This document shows, in pieces, positions 15,125 to 28,108 of a stretch of DNA of 28,108 nucleotides. Location of the stretch: the IMG/VR virus record IMGVR_UViG_3300017779_000110, positions 1-28,108 of that record. The stretch is one strand, 5' to 3'. The first letter of the stretch is position 1. Each line of letters opens with the position of its first letter. The position numbers and the translations under genes are program-made. Origin of the DNA: a virus. The notes under the pieces are model-generated. The model was not told where the DNA came from. It worked only from the letters and a program-made list of their open reading frames with translations, and ran no database searches.

Positions 15125-16697
15125 TCTTCACAGAATAAATAAGACTAAATATTATTTTGATGAGAAGTCAGCTAAGAGAGCTTGTGACTTTATTCAAACT
15201 TTTTGTAAACACACTAAGGGTGAATTAGCAGGTCAACCATTTGTACTAGAGCCTTGGCAAATAGAAATTATAGAAGCTATCTTCGGTTGGAAATCTAAGA
15301 AAACTAAACTCAGAAAATTTAGACAGTGCTTTATTTTTATTCCTCGTAAGAATGGAAAGACTACGATGATGGTAGGCATAGCACTCTATATGCTTTTCTC
15401 TGATGGAGAGAAAGGAGCTGAGATTGTATCGGCTGCCGCAGATAAAGAACAAGCAAGGTTAAGTTTTTCTATAGCTAAACAAATGGTTTTACAAGAACCC
15501 AACCTTATCAAAAGAGCAGGTACTTATCGTGATTCAATTACTTATGATAAGGTTGGATCGTACTACAAAGTTATTTCGGCTGATGCAGATACCAAGCACG
15601 GACTAAACCTCTCTTGTTGTTTACTGGATGAGATTCACTCACACAAAAATCGTGACCTATACGATGTGTTACTCACGAGTATGGGAAGTAGAAAAGAGCC
15701 GTTGATGCTCGGAATCACGACAGCAGGGGCAGGTAATCAGAAAGACCACATATCAAGAGAACTTTATGACTATTCAAAAAAATTAATTGATGGCTCTATT
15801 GAAGACGATTCGTTCTTAGGAATTGTTTATGAAGCTGATGAAAGTGATGATATTTTTAGCGAAGAGGTTTGGAGGAAAGCTAATCCTGGTTATGGTACAA
15901 TTATTAAAGAAGAGTATATGAAGCAACAAGCTACTAAAGCTAAGAATGAGCCTTCATACGAGAATACTTTTCGTAGACTTCACGCTAATCAATGGGTGGT
16001 AAATGAGACTAAATTTATTTCTGACTCTAAGTATATGGCTTGTGATGGTGAAGTAAATAAAAGTTACCTCAAAGGTAAATCTTGTTTTGCAGGATTAGAT
16101 TTAGCATCTACTAGAGACATTACTTGTTTGGCATTATTATTTCCCGATGAAGAGGGTGGTTACGATATAATTAACTATAATTTTATACCTGAAGAAAATG
16201 CTAAGAAGAGGTCACAAAGAGATAAAGTAAATTATGATAAGTGGGAAAGAGAGGGGTACGTTATTTATACTCCTGGAGATGTAACAGATTACAATTACAT
16301 AAAACAAAAAATTATAGAATTAGGCGAACTGTATGATATTCAAATAGTAGCTTACGATAGATGGAACTCAAGTCAACTAATAATTGATTTGACAGAAGAT
16401 GGGTGTCCTTGTATTCCAGTAGGTCAAGGATTTAAAACTATGTCACCTGCAACTAAAGAATTTGAAACACTAATACTTAGTGGTAAGATTCGACACGGAG
16501 GTGACCCAGTACTTAGATGGATGATGAGTAATGTTGTTCTTACTTACGATCCCGCAGGTAACGTAAAACCGAACAAAGCAAAAAGTAATGAAAAGATTGA
16601 TGGTATCGTAGCTTGTATTATGGCACTATCAGAAGCTATGGAAAACAAGAATAAGGGTGGCTCAACTTACGATGACAAAGAAATATTTTTTATCTAA
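15114..16697 (+). CDS. terL: Terminase large subunit
   Basis: This 527-residue protein is a Terminase_1-type packaging motor. The ATPase has Walker A PRKNGKT at 77-83 and Walker B LLDE with D172 and E173. The ITTAG segment at 201-205 matches the coupling motif. The nuclease domain has its metal-binding acids at D329 (AGLDLA), D415 (YDRWN) and D496 (KIDGIVA). The start is a GTG (GTGGCGAAT) inside the end of the small subunit gene, implying translational coupling. It packages DNA into HK97-type proheads encoded downstream. Confidence 0.95.
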   Translation: MANNLHRINKTKYYFDEKSAKRACDFIQTFCKHTKGELAGQPFVLEPWQIEIIEAIFGWKSKKTKLRKFRQCFIFIPRKNGKTTMMVGIALYMLFSDGEKGAEIVSAAADKEQARLSFSIAKQMVLQEPNLIKRAGTYRDSITYDKVGSYYKVISADADTKHGLNLSCCLLDEIHSHKNRDLYDVLLTSMGSRKEPLMLGITTAGAGNQKDHISRELYDYSKKLIDGSIEDDSFLGIVYEADESDDIFSEEVWRKANPGYGTIIKEEYMKQQATKAKNEPSYENTFRRLHANQWVVNETKFISDSKYMACDGEVNKSYLKGKSCFAGLDLASTRDITCLALLFPDEEGGYDIINYNFIPEENAKKRSQRDKVNYDKWEREGYVIYTPGDVTDYNYIKQKIIELGELYDIQIVAYDRWNSSQLIIDLTEDGCPCIPVGQGFKTMSPATKEFETLILSGKIRHGGDPVLRWMMSNVVLTYDPAGNVKPNKAKSNEKIDGIVACIMALSEAMENKNKGGSTYDDKEIFFI

Positions 16698-17172
16698 GAA
16701 TGAGATAATAGAAAAAGAGTACAACTCTATAAAAGAGATTTGCACTAATGTTCTTAGAAGTAATAAAGACCTTAATCTTTTAGATGATTTAGTTCAAGAG
16801 GTTTGTTTAATTTTACTTAAACAGAATAACGAATCTATACAGACTATACACGAAAGGGGTCACTTTAAATTCTACATAGCTAGAATAATTACCAATCAAG
16901 TATTCTCTAGTACTTCACCATTTCATAAGAAGTACAGAGAACAAATTCTTTTTATAGACATAGACGATTCAGAAGAATATAATCCACTAGCTGATAAAGT
17001 TTGGGTTGACATACATCACTTACTTACAAAAAAAGAACGTCAAATAATTGAAATGAGATATGTTTATAATCTAAAAGTAACTGAAATTGCTAAGATAAAA
17101 AAAGTGTCTCCAAGGCAAGTTTACAAGTATCTACAAAGGATTAAAAATTATTTGAAAAAAAAGTATAAATAA
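16672..17172 (+). CDS. Sigma-70-like protein
   Basis: This is a 166-residue protein when started at the ATG at 16672; an in-frame GTG at 16657 is an alternative. LLDDLVQEVCLILLKQ near the N-terminus resembles sigma region 2, which contacts RNA polymerase. The C-terminus (KKERQIIEMRYVYNLKVTEI, then AKIKKVSPRQVYKYLQRIKN) is a region 4 helix-turn-helix. It overlaps the large terminase end by 26 bases and sits before the portal gene. It may redirect host polymerase to late promoters, or simply act as a DNA-binding morphogenesis protein. Regulatory use is inferred. Confidence 0.75.
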   Translation: MTKKYFLSKNEIIEKEYNSIKEICTNVLRSNKDLNLLDDLVQEVCLILLKQNNESIQTIHERGHFKFYIARIITNQVFSSTSPFHKKYREQILFIDIDDSEEYNPLADKVWVDIHHLLTKKERQIIEMRYVYNLKVTEIAKIKKVSPRQVYKYLQRIKNYLKKKYK

Positions 17173-22395: not shown

Positions 22396-22860
22396 ATGGC
22401 AATAGAAAATGCAACAAATGTTGTTATTAGAATAGCAGACGATAGCTCAAGTACAAATTTACAAACTTTAGCCTTTGCAACATCTGCATCTCTTAGTATG
22501 AGTACAGAACTTCGTGACTCTACAACAAAATCATCAGGAGGATTTCAAGAAAACTTAGCAGGACTAAAATCTTGGGAACTAAGTGGAGATGCTTTTATAG
22601 ATTTAAGTGGTGATACTGTTACTGCAACAGACCCTTATACAGGTTTTCCAGGTACTTTAAAAACTGTAACAAAGTTATGGGATTTATGGGCAGCAGGAAA
22701 TAAAGTTGATATTGAATTTGGTACAGGAGCAGGTGGTTCAGGTGACAAATCATATGTAGGTGAAGCATTTATAACTTCTCTTTCTATGGATGCTGGAGTT
22801 GAGGAAAATGCAACTTATTCAATTACATTAACAGGTACAGGAGCATTATCAGAAGCATAA
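22396..22860 (+). CDS. Major tail tube protein 1
   Basis: This 154-residue protein has TP901-1-type tube features: LAFATSASLSMSTELRDSTT at about 25-44, GLKSWELSGDAFIDL at 55-69, WDLWAAGNKVDIEFG at about 92-106, and the closing GEAFITSLSMDAGVEENATY. It would assemble as stacked hexamers around the tape measure. A second, larger paralog follows 24 bases downstream, sharing the same closing motif. Confidence 0.85.
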   Translation: MAIENATNVVIRIADDSSSTNLQTLAFATSASLSMSTELRDSTTKSSGGFQENLAGLKSWELSGDAFIDLSGDTVTATDPYTGFPGTLKTVTKLWDLWAAGNKVDIEFGTGAGGSGDKSYVGEAFITSLSMDAGVEENATYSITLTGTGALSEA

Positions 22861-22884: not shown

Positions 22885-23637
22885 ATGGCAATAAAAAACG
22901 CATCGGATTTATTAATTTATAAAAATGCAACAGCAGTAGCACAAGTAACTAAAATAACTGTTGCTAGCACACCTTTAAGTGGTGTAGGTCACATATTTGC
23001 TAATAATGTAACTAATGGTTCAGATAGTACTAGCGATGATGTAAGAATACCTAGTTCAAGTACTATGGCTAATAATAAAGCCACTATAGCGGGTGCTATC
23101 AAAACTATTCTTGAAGCAAATGGTTATACTTGTAGTTCTGTTGTAGATGGAGTTTTAACAGCTACTAATGGTGCTACAGGTTACGTTCCAACATTATCTT
23201 TTAAAGATGGTGATGTAACTATAGACCAAGGTGGTATTACTGTAGAAGTTACTACTCAAGGTAGTGATTTAGGTTATGAACCAATAGCTTTTAGTACATC
23301 TGCTAGTATATCATTTACAGATGAAGTTAGAGATGTTACAAATAAAGACTCTCAAGGTGTTTATCAATGTTTGTCAGGTTTAAAATCATTTGAAATGACT
23401 ACAGAAGCATTACAAGATTTTGAAGCAAATTTAGATTTCCAAAATTTCTATGAAGATTTAGAAAATGGAACTAAAGTTACTTTAAGATTTTCTGAAAGAT
23501 TAACAGGCGAAAATGATAGGTTTTATCAAGGAGAAGCCTTTATAAGTAGTCTTTCTATGGATGCAAGTGTAGAAGAAAATGTAACTTATTCTGTAACATT
23601 TACAGGTACTTCTTCAGTAACAGAAGGTGCACATTAA
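22885..23637 (+). CDS. Major tail tube protein 2 (paralog with inserted domain)
   Basis: This 250-residue protein repeats the architecture of its neighbour. The start MAIKNASDLLIY parallels MAIENATNVVIR. FSTSASISFTDEVRDVTNKD corresponds to FATSASLSMSTELRDSTTKS, and GEAFISSLSMDASVEENVTY is nearly identical to its neighbour. About 115 residues (roughly 13-130), rich in Thr, Ser and Gly, are inserted near the N-terminus and are absent from copy 1; they could be a surface decoration. It may be a second tube subunit or a special ring at the tail end. The start is in an ATTAATTATG context. Confidence 0.82.
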   Translation: MAIKNASDLLIYKNATAVAQVTKITVASTPLSGVGHIFANNVTNGSDSTSDDVRIPSSSTMANNKATIAGAIKTILEANGYTCSSVVDGVLTATNGATGYVPTLSFKDGDVTIDQGGITVEVTTQGSDLGYEPIAFSTSASISFTDEVRDVTNKDSQGVYQCLSGLKSFEMTTEALQDFEANLDFQNFYEDLENGTKVTLRFSERLTGENDRFYQGEAFISSLSMDASVEENVTYSVTFTGTSSVTEGAH

Positions 23638-23656
23638 TTTAACTAATAAATAAAAA

Positions 23657-23956
23657 ATGAAAAAGGTAAAATTAGGTGGTCAAGAACGACCAATTAGATT
23701 TAGCTACTTAGCACTAAAAGACATTTGTAATAAATGTGGATTAAAGTTAAGTGAGATGAATCAATTAGGAACGGAGATAGACCACATTGGAATTATTGCT
23801 TACTATGGATTAAAATATGGTGCTAAGAAGATTGGCGAACCATTTAAGTTTAAGGTAAGTGATATTGAAAATTGGCTAGATAATGAAGAGTTTTCAAAGA
23901 TAAATGAAATATTTGAATCGTTTCAATTAGACCAACCTCAAAACGAGGGAAAGTAG
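23657..23956 (+). CDS. Tail assembly chaperone, gpG-like
   Basis: This 99-residue protein has the helical layout of tail chaperones: RPIRFSYLALKDICNKCGLK at about 7-26, LSEMNQLGTEIDHIGIIAYY, GLKYGAKK, a FKFKVSDIENWLDNEEFSKI segment, and an acidic end. Its final codons form G GGA AAG TAG, a slippery site followed at once by the stop. It therefore makes this short form and, by -1 frameshift, a fusion with the downstream frame, as in lambda G and GT. It chaperones the tape measure encoded next. Confidence 0.84.
   Translation: MKKVKLGGQERPIRFSYLALKDICNKCGLKLSEMNQLGTEIDHIGIIAYYGLKYGAKKIGEPFKFKVSDIENWLDNEEFSKINEIFESFQLDQPQNEGK
23947..23953 (+). other. -1 ribosomal frameshift site GGGAAAG
   Basis: The zero-frame codons are GAG GGA AAG TAG, so the heptamer G-GGA-AAG has the X-XXY-YYZ form and is the same heptamer used in the lambda G/GT gene. 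After a -1 slip the next codon is GTA at 23953-23955, and the frame is open to 24318. A second GGGAAAG lies 14 bases later at 23961-23967. Confidence 0.92.
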
Positions 23957-24318
23957 TTGAGGGAAAGGAAGTCGATGAAGAGTCTGGTGATATTAATTGG
24001 GATAGGCTTGAACAAATAGCTTTAGGTAGAATGGGGATGAGTTATGATGAACTTTATGACTCAACCCCACGAACCTTTAATAACAAGTTGATTGGGTTTA
24101 ACAATTACCAGGAACAATTAATGCAAGATAGATGGGAGCAAACTAGAATAATAGCACACTCCACACTATCACCTCACTCTAAAAAAAGAATAAAGCCTAA
24201 AGAAATATTGCCTTTCCCTTGGGATAATAACAAAAAATCTAAAGTAAAACTAGCCTCAAAAGAACATATACAATCTGTGATAGATAAATACAATAAGAAA
24301 AAAATTAATAAAATATAA
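23953..24318 (+). CDS. Frameshift extension of the tail chaperone, gpT-like
   Basis: This -1 frame adds 121 residues to the 99-residue chaperone, giving a fusion of about 220 residues. It opens VVEGKEVDEESGDINWDRLE, then IALGRMGMSYDELYDSTPRT and FNNKLIGFNNYQEQLMQDRW; LPFPWD follows near residue 93. The pattern is typical of gpT-like domains. The first in-frame ATG is at 24031, in the middle of the conserved LGRMGMSYDEL stretch, so independent starting would truncate the domain. The stop overlaps the tape measure ATG (TAATG). The extended form normally bridges the tape measure and tube protein during tail assembly. Confidence 0.85.
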   Translation, partial: VVEGKEVDEESGDINWDRLEQIALGRMGMSYDELYDSTPRTFNNKLIGFNNYQEQLMQDRWEQTRIIAHSTLSPHSKKRIKPKEILPFPWDNNKKSKVKLASKEHIQSVIDKYNKKKINKI

Positions 24319-26474
24319 TGGCTGGAGTTAAAACTATATCGATAATTGTAGCTGCTAATATCAAAGGTTTGGAAGCAAGTCTTGGTAAAGCAAATAAATC
24401 AATAGCAGGTTTTGCTTCTAATGCAGCTCGTGTCGGCTCTATGCTGTCTTTTGGTGTTACAGCACCTTTAGTTGCTATGGGTAAACAAGCCTTCGATACA
24501 TTCTCTAATTTTGAGAACGCTATGATGAAGGTAAATACTGTTACTGGAGCAAGTGTCGAAGAATTTAAGATGCTTACAGAAGAAGCTAAACGATTAGGTG
24601 CAACTACTCAATTTACAGCCTCTCAAGTAGCAGACTTACAATTAGTTTTAGGTCGTAAAGGTTTTGATCCACAAGCAATTAAAGAAATGGAAGGGTCTAT
24701 ATTAGACCTTGCTTTAGCTACAGGAGAAGATTTATCTTTAGCAGCAGACACAGTAGCAGCCTCAATAAACGCTTTTGGATTAGAGACAGACCAAGCAGGT
24801 AGAGTAGCAAATACTTTAGCTTCAGCAGCAGCAAACTCATCAATACAACTTAGTACATTTAGTACAGCTTTTGGTCACGCAGGTTCTTCGGCTAAAGCAG
24901 TTGGTGTAGATATAGAAGAATTGTCTGCTATGATGGGTGTCTTAATGGATAATGGTATTAAGGCTTCTAAAGCAGGTACAGGGCTTCGTAAAGCTTTTAT
25001 GAAGTTAAACGAAGAAGGTATACCATTTGGTCAAACTTTAGATAACTTATCTAATGGTACAATGAGTCTTAGTCAAGCTCAAGGTTTAGTCGGAACTACA
25101 GCAGCAAACCAATTACTTATATTATCAGAAAATAGAGAAAAAATAGAAGAATTAACCAATGAGTATGATACTAATACTACTAGGTTAGGCGAAATGGCAG
25201 AAGCTATGGGTAACACCACTTTCGCTAAAGTTAAAAAAATGCAATCTGCTATAGAGGGTTTAAAGTTAGAGATAGGTGCTTTAATAGCTGATATGCTAGT
25301 ACCTCTAATTCAAAAGATAACTCAAGTAGCAAACAAGTTTTCAGGTTTAGATGAAGAAACTCAAAAATCTATAATTAAATTTGCAGCAGTAGCAACAGCT
25401 ATCGGACCTGTGTTAATTGCAATAGGAGCTTTAGTGGCTGTTTTTGGTAACTTATTTTTAGCTATCAAAAAGGTTGCTGTCACAGGGTTTACGTTATTCA
25501 CAAATCCTATAGGGATTGTAGTTGGATTAGTTGCAGGTTTAGCAGCAGGAGTTTTATATCTTATTGGTAATTGGGACACATTTGTACTAAAAGTAGCTAA
25601 ATCGGCATCACCAATAAAATCAGCAATTACAGGTATTTTAAAATCAGTAGCAGGATTTGCAGGTGTAAACCCTAAGTTACAAGGTACTATAATGGCTATT
25701 GATATATTAAGTGACCAAATATCTAGTGGTGAATTTGAGCCTCCCGAAGCACAATGGAAGAGTTTTGGAGATACTATGAAAGATTTAGTGTCTGATGTGG
25801 CAGGTTTTGATTTAGATGTATTAGGTGGTTTATTTGGTAACATCAATTCGCCTGAAGTAGAGTCAACAGAAAGCGAAGAAAAACCTAAAACAAGATCCCT
25901 TCAAGAAGCTTACGATGCTATATTTGGCGAAAACGCTTATGCAGCATATCAAGAAGATATGAGATTAAAACAAGAGCAACTAGCATCAGCAAAAAGATGG
26001 ACTAATTCACTTAATAGTTTAGCTGTTAGTTTATCAGAAAACTTTGCTCAATCATTTGCCGATACTATTTTAAGTGGTCAAAACTTCTTAGAGGGTATGA
26101 AGGCAATATTTATAGATTTAGCAAAACAAATTGCTTCGATGATAATTAAAGCACTTGTTTTAACTGCAATACTTTCTTTAACAGGACTTGGTGGAACTGC
26201 CGCAGCACAAAAAAAGTTTGGAGCAAATCAAGGATTTAAAGATATATTAGGTGGTATGTTCGCAGGTGGTTTCGCTAACGGAGGTCAACCACCTTTAGGT
26301 AAAGTCAGTCTCGTTGGAGAACAAGGACCAGAATTATTTGTTCCGAATCAATCAGGAACAATTATACCTAATCACGCTTTAGGTGGTGGTACAGTTATAC
26401 CTGATGTAAGAATATCAGGTGATGATTTATTAATAGTATTTGATAGAGCTAACAGAAGAAAAGCACGCAGATAA
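24318..26474 (+). CDS. Tail tape measure protein
   Basis: This 718-residue protein has an N-terminal tape measure domain, with AFDTFSNFENAMMKVNTVTG at 58-77, EEAKRLGATTQFTASQVADL and LALATGEDLSLAADTVAASI. Hydrophobic glycine/alanine-rich segments at about 353-415 (FAAVATAIGPVLIAIGALVA; NPIGIVVGLVAGLAAG) may insert into the host membrane. It ends with the common GGFANGGQPPLGKVSLVGEQ / GPELFVPNQSGTIIPN segment. At roughly 0.15 nm per residue, the usual rule, the tail would be near 105-110 nm long. It overlaps both neighbouring genes by single TAATG junctions. Confidence 0.93.
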   Translation: MAGVKTISIIVAANIKGLEASLGKANKSIAGFASNAARVGSMLSFGVTAPLVAMGKQAFDTFSNFENAMMKVNTVTGASVEEFKMLTEEAKRLGATTQFTASQVADLQLVLGRKGFDPQAIKEMEGSILDLALATGEDLSLAADTVAASINAFGLETDQAGRVANTLASAAANSSIQLSTFSTAFGHAGSSAKAVGVDIEELSAMMGVLMDNGIKASKAGTGLRKAFMKLNEEGIPFGQTLDNLSNGTMSLSQAQGLVGTTAANQLLILSENREKIEELTNEYDTNTTRLGEMAEAMGNTTFAKVKKMQSAIEGLKLEIGALIADMLVPLIQKITQVANKFSGLDEETQKSIIKFAAVATAIGPVLIAIGALVAVFGNLFLAIKKVAVTGFTLFTNPIGIVVGLVAGLAAGVLYLIGNWDTFVLKVAKSASPIKSAITGILKSVAGFAGVNPKLQGTIMAIDILSDQISSGEFEPPEAQWKSFGDTMKDLVSDVAGFDLDVLGGLFGNINSPEVESTESEEKPKTRSLQEAYDAIFGENAYAAYQEDMRLKQEQLASAKRWTNSLNSLAVSLSENFAQSFADTILSGQNFLEGMKAIFIDLAKQIASMIIKALVLTAILSLTGLGGTAAAQKKFGANQGFKDILGGMFAGGFANGGQPPLGKVSLVGEQGPELFVPNQSGTIIPNHALGGGTVIPDVRISGDDLLIVFDRANRRKARR

Positions 26475-28108
26475 TGGCATACGCAAAATACAGAACTTGT
26501 AATATAACAGGTGAAAAAGGCTCTTTTTGGACTGTAGAAATACATAAAAAAGACTTTAACGGAGCATCTACTCAAATTAATACATCAGGCGAGGGTTTCG
26601 AGATAACTTGGAATGGTCAAGGAGGTACTAGAGATAGAGTATTTTTAGGCTCAGAGTGTAAATTAAATTTGATTGTAGAAAATAATACTGATGAAGCTTT
26701 TATATATGATACAATTAGCGCAGGTAATCAAGGGTATTATATAAGAATTTACAAAAGCAATGATCCTCTAGTTAGGGGTGATTTATGGTGGTTTGGATGG
26801 GTGCAGCCAGCTTTTGATAAAATACAAAATATGCCTTATCCGTATATCTATCAACTTACATCTACTGACAGTTACGGATATTTTAACAAGCAAAAAGAAA
26901 AAACTTTTACAGGCAATACTGAAAAAACAGCGCCACATAAATTAAAAGATATTTTTAGAGATACTTTGCTTACTGATATGAAAATATTTAGTTCTACAGC
27001 AAATGACTCACCAGCTCCTTTAGATGAGTATCTTTTAAGAACTGTTTTAGATTGGCGACAAACTACTGATAGTTATACAGAAGACCCCGCAGATTTATAT
27101 TATATAGCTAAAGGTAATGTTAAAGATGAAACACAAACTGATCCTGAAACAGGAGCAACAATATTAACTGATAAGCCATTTGATTATAAAAGTCAAGACG
27201 TATTTAATGGTCTTTTAAAAGCTTTTAACGCCGTAGGTTTTTTAGCTGAGGGTAAATACAATATAATTCAACCTAATAGCTTAAAAGGTAACATAACAGG
27301 TAATATAAGAGCGTGGGAATATAATAAAACTACTGACTCATCATTACAAGTACCAAATATATTACTTACTATAGACCAAAATAATAATAATTTACTTGCT
27401 GGGTCAACTATTACCTATGAGCCTAGTTTTGAAAGTGTTAAAGTACATTATAAAAAAGGTGTATCTATATTTAATGTAGGGAATCAACAAGATTTATCAT
27501 CTTTAATTTATGCTGGTACTTTGGTTGAGCAATCAGATGCACAATTACAATTACAATTTTTTGCAAAGCATAGGGAAACAATAAACACAGCTGACATAAA
27601 TTACCCTACTAATCAGATTGTACATCATACTTTTAAAACAACTAGCATTTTAACTGTAAAAGCTACAAGTGGTACAAGTAGTAGATATTTAGTTCAAGAT
27701 ACAGACGGTTTATTGGTTTGGCAAAATACATCAGGTACTATAACTATTGAGAGGGGTTATAATGCAGATATAACTAATTTAATAAATTCCGTTGATGGTT
27801 TTTGTGATGGTATGCCTAAAAACGTTGGTTTAGATAGTTTTAGCGGTAATAGCAATTTATCATACGGGCCTTGTTCTACATCACTAACAAATAGTAACGC
27901 CCAACAAAATTTTAATACAGAAATTAAATTTACTGCTAGTATACCTTTTCCTGATATATCGCCAGCAGACATTGAAATACAAGTAGCATCAACTAATGAT
28001 TATTTTAAATTTTCATCACCTAACACACTACCTTTAACAAATCCAACAGTACAAAGCTCATCAACTGAGTGTGAATTTATACAATTAACAGCACAATTAA
28101 CTAGTGAA
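26474..28108 (+). CDS. Tail hub/fibre protein, N-terminal part (continues at base 1)
   Basis: The frame starts at the ATG overlapping the tape measure stop (TAATG) and has no stop through 28108. Because 27986-28108 repeats bases 1-123 in phase, the gene continues from base 1 to 2532, giving 1347 residues. The N-terminal part (MAYAKYRTCNITGEKGSFWT; WWFGWVQPAF at 105-114; YPYIYQLTSTDSYGYF) is beta-rich and in the place of distal tail or baseplate hub proteins. The C-terminal part is a fibre. It appears to be a single protein doing the work of several tail-tip proteins. I cannot name the hub family precisely. Confidence 0.85.
   Translation, partial: MAYAKYRTCNITGEKGSFWTVEIHKKDFNGASTQINTSGEGFEITWNGQGGTRDRVFLGSECKLNLIVENNTDEAFIYDTISAGNQGYYIRIYKSNDPLVRGDLWWFGWVQPAFDKIQNMPYPYIYQLTSTDSYGYFNKQKEKTFTGNTEKTAPHKLKDIFRDTLLTDMKIFSSTANDSPAPLDEYLLRTVLDWRQTTDSYTEDPADLYYIAKGNVKDETQTDPETGATILTDKPFDYKSQDVFNGLLKAFNAVGFLAEGKYNIIQPNSLKGNITGNIRAWEYNKTTDSSLQVPNILLTIDQNNNNLLAGSTITYEPSFESVKVHYKKGVSIFNVGNQQDLSSLIYAGTLVEQSDAQLQLQFFAKHRETINTADINYPTNQIVHHTFKTTSILTVKATSGTSSRYLVQDTDGLLVWQNTSGTITIERGYNADITNLINSVDGFCDGMPKNVGLDSFSGNSNLSYGPCSTSLTNSNAQQNFNTEIKFTASIPFPDISPADIEIQVASTNDYFKFSSPNTLPLTNPTVQSSSTECEFIQLTAQLTSE
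27986..28108. repeat. Right copy of 123-bp terminal redundancy
   Basis: This stretch is identical to bases 1-123 and begins at a codon boundary of the tail hub/fibre gene. It marks the point where the linear contig closes into a circle of about 27,985 bases. Confidence 0.95.

Follow-up and report, generated by a model that had tools for sequence, protein, structure and literature searches.

The stretch of DNA analysed here (the window) comprises positions 1 to 28,108 of the virus record IMGVR_UViG_3300017779_000110, 28,108 nt read on one strand. It carries a 123-nt direct end repeat (1-123 and 27986-28108), so the genome is probably circular or circularly permuted; the ORF at 26474-28108 runs on into 1-2532, forming a single long tail protein gene. 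An ECF-like sigma factor gene (16657-17172; Sigma70_r4_2, E 4e-9) lies between the large terminase and portal genes and overlaps the end of the former. No tRNA genes were found in the window. The locus of interest (Table 1) is a small gene, G, with a second coding region, T, overlapping its end in the -1 frame. Upstream are two tail tube genes (Phage_tail_2, PF06199), adjacent paralogues at 22396-22860 and 22885-23637 that are 38% identical, the second with ~110 extra residues near its N-terminus; downstream is the tape measure gene.

Table 1. Features of the G/T locus in the window
Feature	Position	Strand	Basis
G, gpG-like tail assembly chaperone, zero-frame product, 99 aa, ends EGK-TAG	23657..23956	+	ORF, synteny, predicted fold
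Putative slippery heptamer, G GGA AAG	23947..23953	+	In-phase conservation, wobble-site constancy
Zero-frame stop TAG, directly 3′ of the heptamer	23954..23956	+	Adjacency kept in relatives
T, gpT-like -1 frame domain, 121 aa, predicted only as fusion to G	23953..24318	+	phrog_16333, pN/pS
First canonical start (ATG) of the -1 frame, at the hairpin base	24031..24033	+	
Conserved mRNA hairpin in T coding sequence (5′ arm 24032-24047, loop 24048-24053, 3′ arm 24054-24069)	24032..24069	+	
Tape measure protein, ATG overlaps T stop (TAATG)	24318..26474	+	PF10145, PHROG tape-measure families

No Pfam family was found for G, and 3 of the 19 members of the G set matched PHROG 2115 (‘tail protein’). 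An AlphaFold2 model of G (pLDDT 87) was compared by Foldseek with viral models; one match was to A0A8S5M2L5, a tail assembly chaperone of viral origin (TMq 0.78, E 1.1e-4), and another, at a weak E of 0.013, to the homologue of G in Cellulophaga phage phi18:2 (S0A451, TMq 0.76). By this model G is predicted to fold as tail assembly chaperones do. Nothing useful came from PDB fold searches with either domain or from sequence comparison with solved structures, and no solved structure matched the G model. The named relatives are Cellulophaga and Bacteroides phages and Porphyromonas and Bacteroides prophages, so that a Bacteroidota host is well supported; scans of genome contigs gave only distant prophage matches, in Porphyromonas and Bacteroides fragilis.

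The initial annotation proposed a lambda-type -1 programmed frameshift in this tail chaperone gene, and direct reading of the sequence confirmed its coordinates, the phase of the heptamer, the adjacent TAG, the extent of the -1 frame and the 220-residue fusion. The 99-aa ORF at 23657-23956 finishes GAG GGA AAG TAG. The -1 frame, whose preceding stop is at 23914-23916, is open from 23917 to the TAA at 24316-24318, giving a predicted fusion of 99 + 121 = 220 aa with the junction GK-VV. After the heptamer this frame reads VVEGKEVDEESG..., without ATG, GTG or TTG until the ATG at 24031. Among 5491 in-phase positions in the plus-strand coding sequence of the window, GGGAAAG occurs in phase only here. 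A second GGGAAAG, at 23961 and in the -1 frame, was dropped as a candidate slip site because relatives have GGGAGAG, GGGGGAG and others there. Transcriptional slippage at the window's GGGAAAG is not favoured, a homopolymer run being absent.

Relatives were collected by a scan with the G alignment, which yielded 80 IMG/VR loci with G 79-93% identical, or 81 loci including the window. These loci are related rather than independent, and counts over them are to be read as comparisons, not as probabilities. Relatives lacking the heptamer, which the initial annotation had named as evidence against its proposal, were looked for and the opposite was found: GGGAAAG stands in phase at the end of G at all 81 loci. 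Sequencing error is thereby ruled out as the cause of the frame break. In a tree built from 67 distinct sequences, the heptamer's three wobble positions changed once, never and once, and the third positions of 96 conserved codons changed 5.8 times on average. At 23 of the 81 loci GGG is immediately preceded by a -1 frame TGA; the frames overlap there by just 10 nt, and a crossing is therefore possible only at the heptamer. More distant relatives retain GGGAAAG TAG (L057-L059, L062) or have GGGAAAC (L060 and L061, with TAG one codon later; also L201).

The product of the -1 frame had been described as gpT-like and lying just before the tape measure. This is borne out by its match to phrog_16333 (E 6e-21), a family to which all 21 members of our alignment of distant T domains (A7) belong, and by the TAATG overlap with the tape measure gene. 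T could in principle be a separate gene with its own start, at ATG 24031 or at some unusual start codon, and its overlap with G incidental: that ATG opens a 95-aa ORF, the PHROG 16333 match begins only at residue 22 of the -1 product, and cultured relatives carry annotation as two hypothetical proteins. Codons 2-25 after the slip site are at odds with this reading. They lie upstream of the first canonical start in nearly all of the 55 sequences with equal spacing that were used for the comparison, and in those sequences pN/pS is 0.20 when they are read in the -1 frame but 1.42 and 1.26 in the two others, the pattern of a stretch conserved as protein. A structure model of T places a predicted helix at residues 16-27, beginning upstream of the first Met, so that a start at ATG 24031 would cut it; other members have GTG, TTG or CTA in place of this ATG; and a separate gene leaves an invariant heptamer with free third positions to be explained. 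Against a separate T gene, the purifying selection on the -1 frame ahead of its first start weighs most, and on this ground we discard that reading as very improbable.

A lambda-type G/GT programmed -1 frameshift, its occurrence judged by comparison, is thus the reading that we hold with high confidence, and the original proposal is strongly supported both by the heptamer at 81 of 81 loci and by selection ahead of any start. The locus has the features of its class, namely an in-phase X XXY YYZ heptamer near the end of G, a T without a start of its own, a position between tail protein and tape measure genes, and conservation of the arrangement.

The stop codon touching the heptamer is also conserved. 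It is the next codon at 80 of the 81 loci, the sole exception being GGGAAAG TCA TAG; over all 81 loci the stops are 78 TAG and 3 TAA. Among distinct sequences with Val as the first -1 codon, that codon is GTA in 64 of 65, while GTA makes up 31% of other Val codons in T; the second -1 codon is variable (GTT, GTA, GTC, GAA, GCA, GGA and others). Retention of A at the free position of the GTA codon retains the zero-frame stop, and the adjacent stop is itself under selection, more than the protein would require. The mean distance from heptamer to stop is 26 and 36 nt in two curated phage sets (PMC10885494).

The initial annotation suggested that the adjacent stop acts as a pausing signal in place of a pseudoknot. 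Such stimulation would fit a stop conserved beyond the protein's needs, and -1 sites with a zero-frame stop directly after the heptamer do occur naturally, in Rous sarcoma virus and barley yellow dwarf virus (PMC4373837), which are eukaryotic RNA viruses with genes unrelated to G and T. The precedent in the same source runs the other way: a stop codon placed after the HIV slip site lowered -1 shifting in mammalian cells, and in earlier bacterial work cited there a following stop had the same effect, and shifting was abolished when release factor was overexpressed (PMC4373837). The pausing suggestion is therefore unsupported, and stimulation by TAG seems to us improbable. Given the lowered shifting and release factor competition in that precedent, the stop is better seen as a brake and a cut-off: termination would probably compete with slippage, keeping GT rare and fixing the C-terminus of G.

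In eukaryotic RNA viruses with an adjacent stop, stimulatory structures lie downstream. No conserved classical stimulator (a hairpin or pseudoknot 5-9 nt after the heptamer) was found here, nor any conserved structure from 0 to 80 nt after it, either by folding (mean z -0.2) or by RNAalifold. The assumption that RNA structure is lacking holds to this extent; it fails further on, where a strong conserved hairpin begins 78 nt after the heptamer in the window and ~69 to 87 nt after it across relatives. Folding of the 120 nt after the heptamer gives a mean z of -2.6, due to this hairpin, and in an RNAalifold analysis of 33 representatives it was the only structure recovered. Among 1759 coding windows none has a lower energy (-23.7 kcal/mol) or a lower z against synonymous recoding (-6.7). 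It is present in 39 of 40 distinct relatives, with a mean z of -4.8 against synonymous recoding, the L112 clade alone lacking it at that place. No Rfam family was found at E <= 1 in 23600-24400.

Compensatory changes accompany the conserved pairing. Of the hairpin cells 85% are paired, a share that falls below 50% when the arms are slid. Changes on both sides of a pair occur in 15 cells over 5 pairs; shuffles give 5.6 cells, and none of 500 reached 15, while the number of both-side-changed pairs alone (5 versus 3.7 in shuffles) is not decisive. Compensation is clearest at GGAGTTAGC/GCTAACTCC of L132: a Gly codon there has become Glu with pairing retained. Since G-U cells outnumber A-C cells by 115 to 5, the hairpin belongs to the mRNA strand, and a palindrome acting at the DNA level is ruled out.

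The base of the hairpin coincides with the first in-frame start of T or follows it closely, and this gives it a simple candidate role: masking of the in-frame ATGs, so that T would be made only as a fusion. This is the role that we favour, tentatively. Two observations stand against it: the L112 clade has no hairpin there although its in-frame ATGs are exposed, and Cellulophaga phage phi39:1 has ATGs and no such hairpin.

Hairpins near the G/T crossing also occur elsewhere among the relatives. In gut Bacteroidales phages, whose T is ~35% identical to that of the window and which have an A9 slip run, often with an adjacent stop, a hairpin of -21 to -30 kcal/mol (z -1.6 to -4.3) occupies the corresponding position in T, ~60 nt downstream of the slip site. 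Its 3′ arm is again on Thr-Pro codons and its 5′ arm is three codons earlier. L064 and the L112 clade have strong hairpins at the classical spacing, 6-8 nt after the slip site. Very stable hairpins were also seen near A-run slip sites, spaced almost as in the classical case, at L194:1520-1575 (z -6.0) and L064:2525-2578 (z about -4 to -5), and at L020:2950-3010 there is an odd layout in which the slip site AAAAAAG and its TAG lie in the loop of a 12-bp hairpin (CCGGATCAAAGA...TCTTTGATCCGG). Structure near the crossing thus recurs at varying distances, which is evidence against a single stimulator of the classical kind.

Two other roles may be considered. The hairpin may be a distal part of the frameshift signal, working through pausing or through a long-range fold that reaches the slip site; its place within a frameshift cassette, the gut Bacteroidales counterpart and the classically spaced hairpins of L064 and the L112 clade speak for this. 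A spacing of ~69 to 87 nt is too far for a simple stimulator, and a long-range helix between the slip site region and the far side of the hairpin (GTTGAGGG with CCTTTAAC) has 7.5 of 8 pairs, little more than the coding expectation of 6.8; a distal signal is rather unlikely. Alternatively, the hairpin could control mRNA stability or processing between the highly expressed head, tail-tube and G part and the little-needed tape measure. Most of the T stretch would be free of ribosomes because of the stop, and structure could persist there; the hairpin has no U-tract and so by inspection is not an intrinsic terminator. We consider control of mRNA stability unlikely. Masking of the T starts remains the role that we favour.

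The heptamer G_GGA_AAG is highly shift-prone in Escherichia coli, and lambda G/GT is the model system (PMC5009743); the founding paper on the class is Xu, Hendrix and Duda 2004, as cited in that review. By direct check of its sequence, lambda has the same GGGAAAG heptamer in the same phase; it shares the gene order (major tail protein, G, T in the -1 frame, tape measure) and a T without a separate start. Differences are the distance from heptamer to stop (15 nt in lambda, 0 nt in the window), proteins too unlike those of the window for a sequence match, and the hairpin, which was not found in lambda. Lambda T (L154) has a locally structured stretch of its own ~144 nt after GGGAAAG (z -4.5 against synonymous recoding). 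Haloarchaeal viruses, with archaeal hosts and compared here as the review presents them, have g-t slip sites G_GGA_AAG in HCTV-5 and G_GGA_AAC in HCTV-1 (PMC5009743), the latter being the GGGAAAC of L060, L061 and L201.

Distant Bacteroidota relatives retain the G/T frame change, at A-runs. These A7-A10-run pairs (Cellulophaga phi39:1, phi12:1 and phi10:1, Bacteroides Bacuni_F1 and gut prophages) share the gene position, the T family phrog_16333 and often a stop directly at the run; they differ in that an A-run replaces GGGAAAG, and there transcriptional slippage is possible. In the cultured Cellulophaga phages phi39:1 (L029), phi12:1 (L030) and phi10:1 (L032) the crossing from G to T is +1 (or -2), at A7-A9 runs, for which transcriptional slippage is a candidate; their records list hypothetical proteins, and G of phi10:1 is left unannotated. 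Bacteroidales phages and prophages (L155-L178, L190, L194-L197, L199, L200, L202) cross by -1 at A9 or A9G, often with a stop directly after the run.

These comparisons suggest the following course of events. Ribosomes on the mRNA of the gpG-like chaperone would reach G GGA AAG with TAG next, and the majority would terminate there, yielding the 99-aa G. A minority would slip back by one base, with tRNA-Gly and tRNA-Lys re-pairing at GGG AAA; these ribosomes would bypass the stop and continue in the -1 frame as far as 24318, yielding the G-T fusion of 220 aa. If lambda is a guide, G would coat the tape measure protein and the T domain would recruit the tail tube protein, while the hairpin, in mRNA that few ribosomes enter, may hide the in-frame ATGs of T. 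The tape measure ATG is -1 to +17 nt from the T stop in 64 of 67 relatives (in the other 3 no start was called), and with the two so near, shifted ribosomes could also feed tape measure translation, which we offer as a lead rather than a result.

As a frameshift the locus belongs to the known lambda class; the invariant contact of heptamer and stop and the distal hairpin go beyond it. They may, though we put this forward with reserve, mark a distinct Bacteroidota phage module in which the slip site touches the stop, so that release factor sets the ratio of G to GT, and a hairpin either tunes the shift distally or prevents T from being made alone. Marine and gut groups with different slip sites both have the hairpin, with one arm displaced along the protein. 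No description of the heptamer-stop contact or of the hairpin in Bacteroidota phages was found in open full text, which omits most subscription journals.

In the records checked, such gene pairs appear as hypothetical proteins, with one partner unannotated, or with no annotation. Strong comparative evidence now places uncultured marine Bacteroidota phages among those with the lambda G/GT mechanism. No description was found of the conserved hairpin, an RNA element located in a stretch that few ribosomes would enter, and the invariant contact between heptamer and stop is a natural test of the competition between termination and -1 slippage in bacteria.
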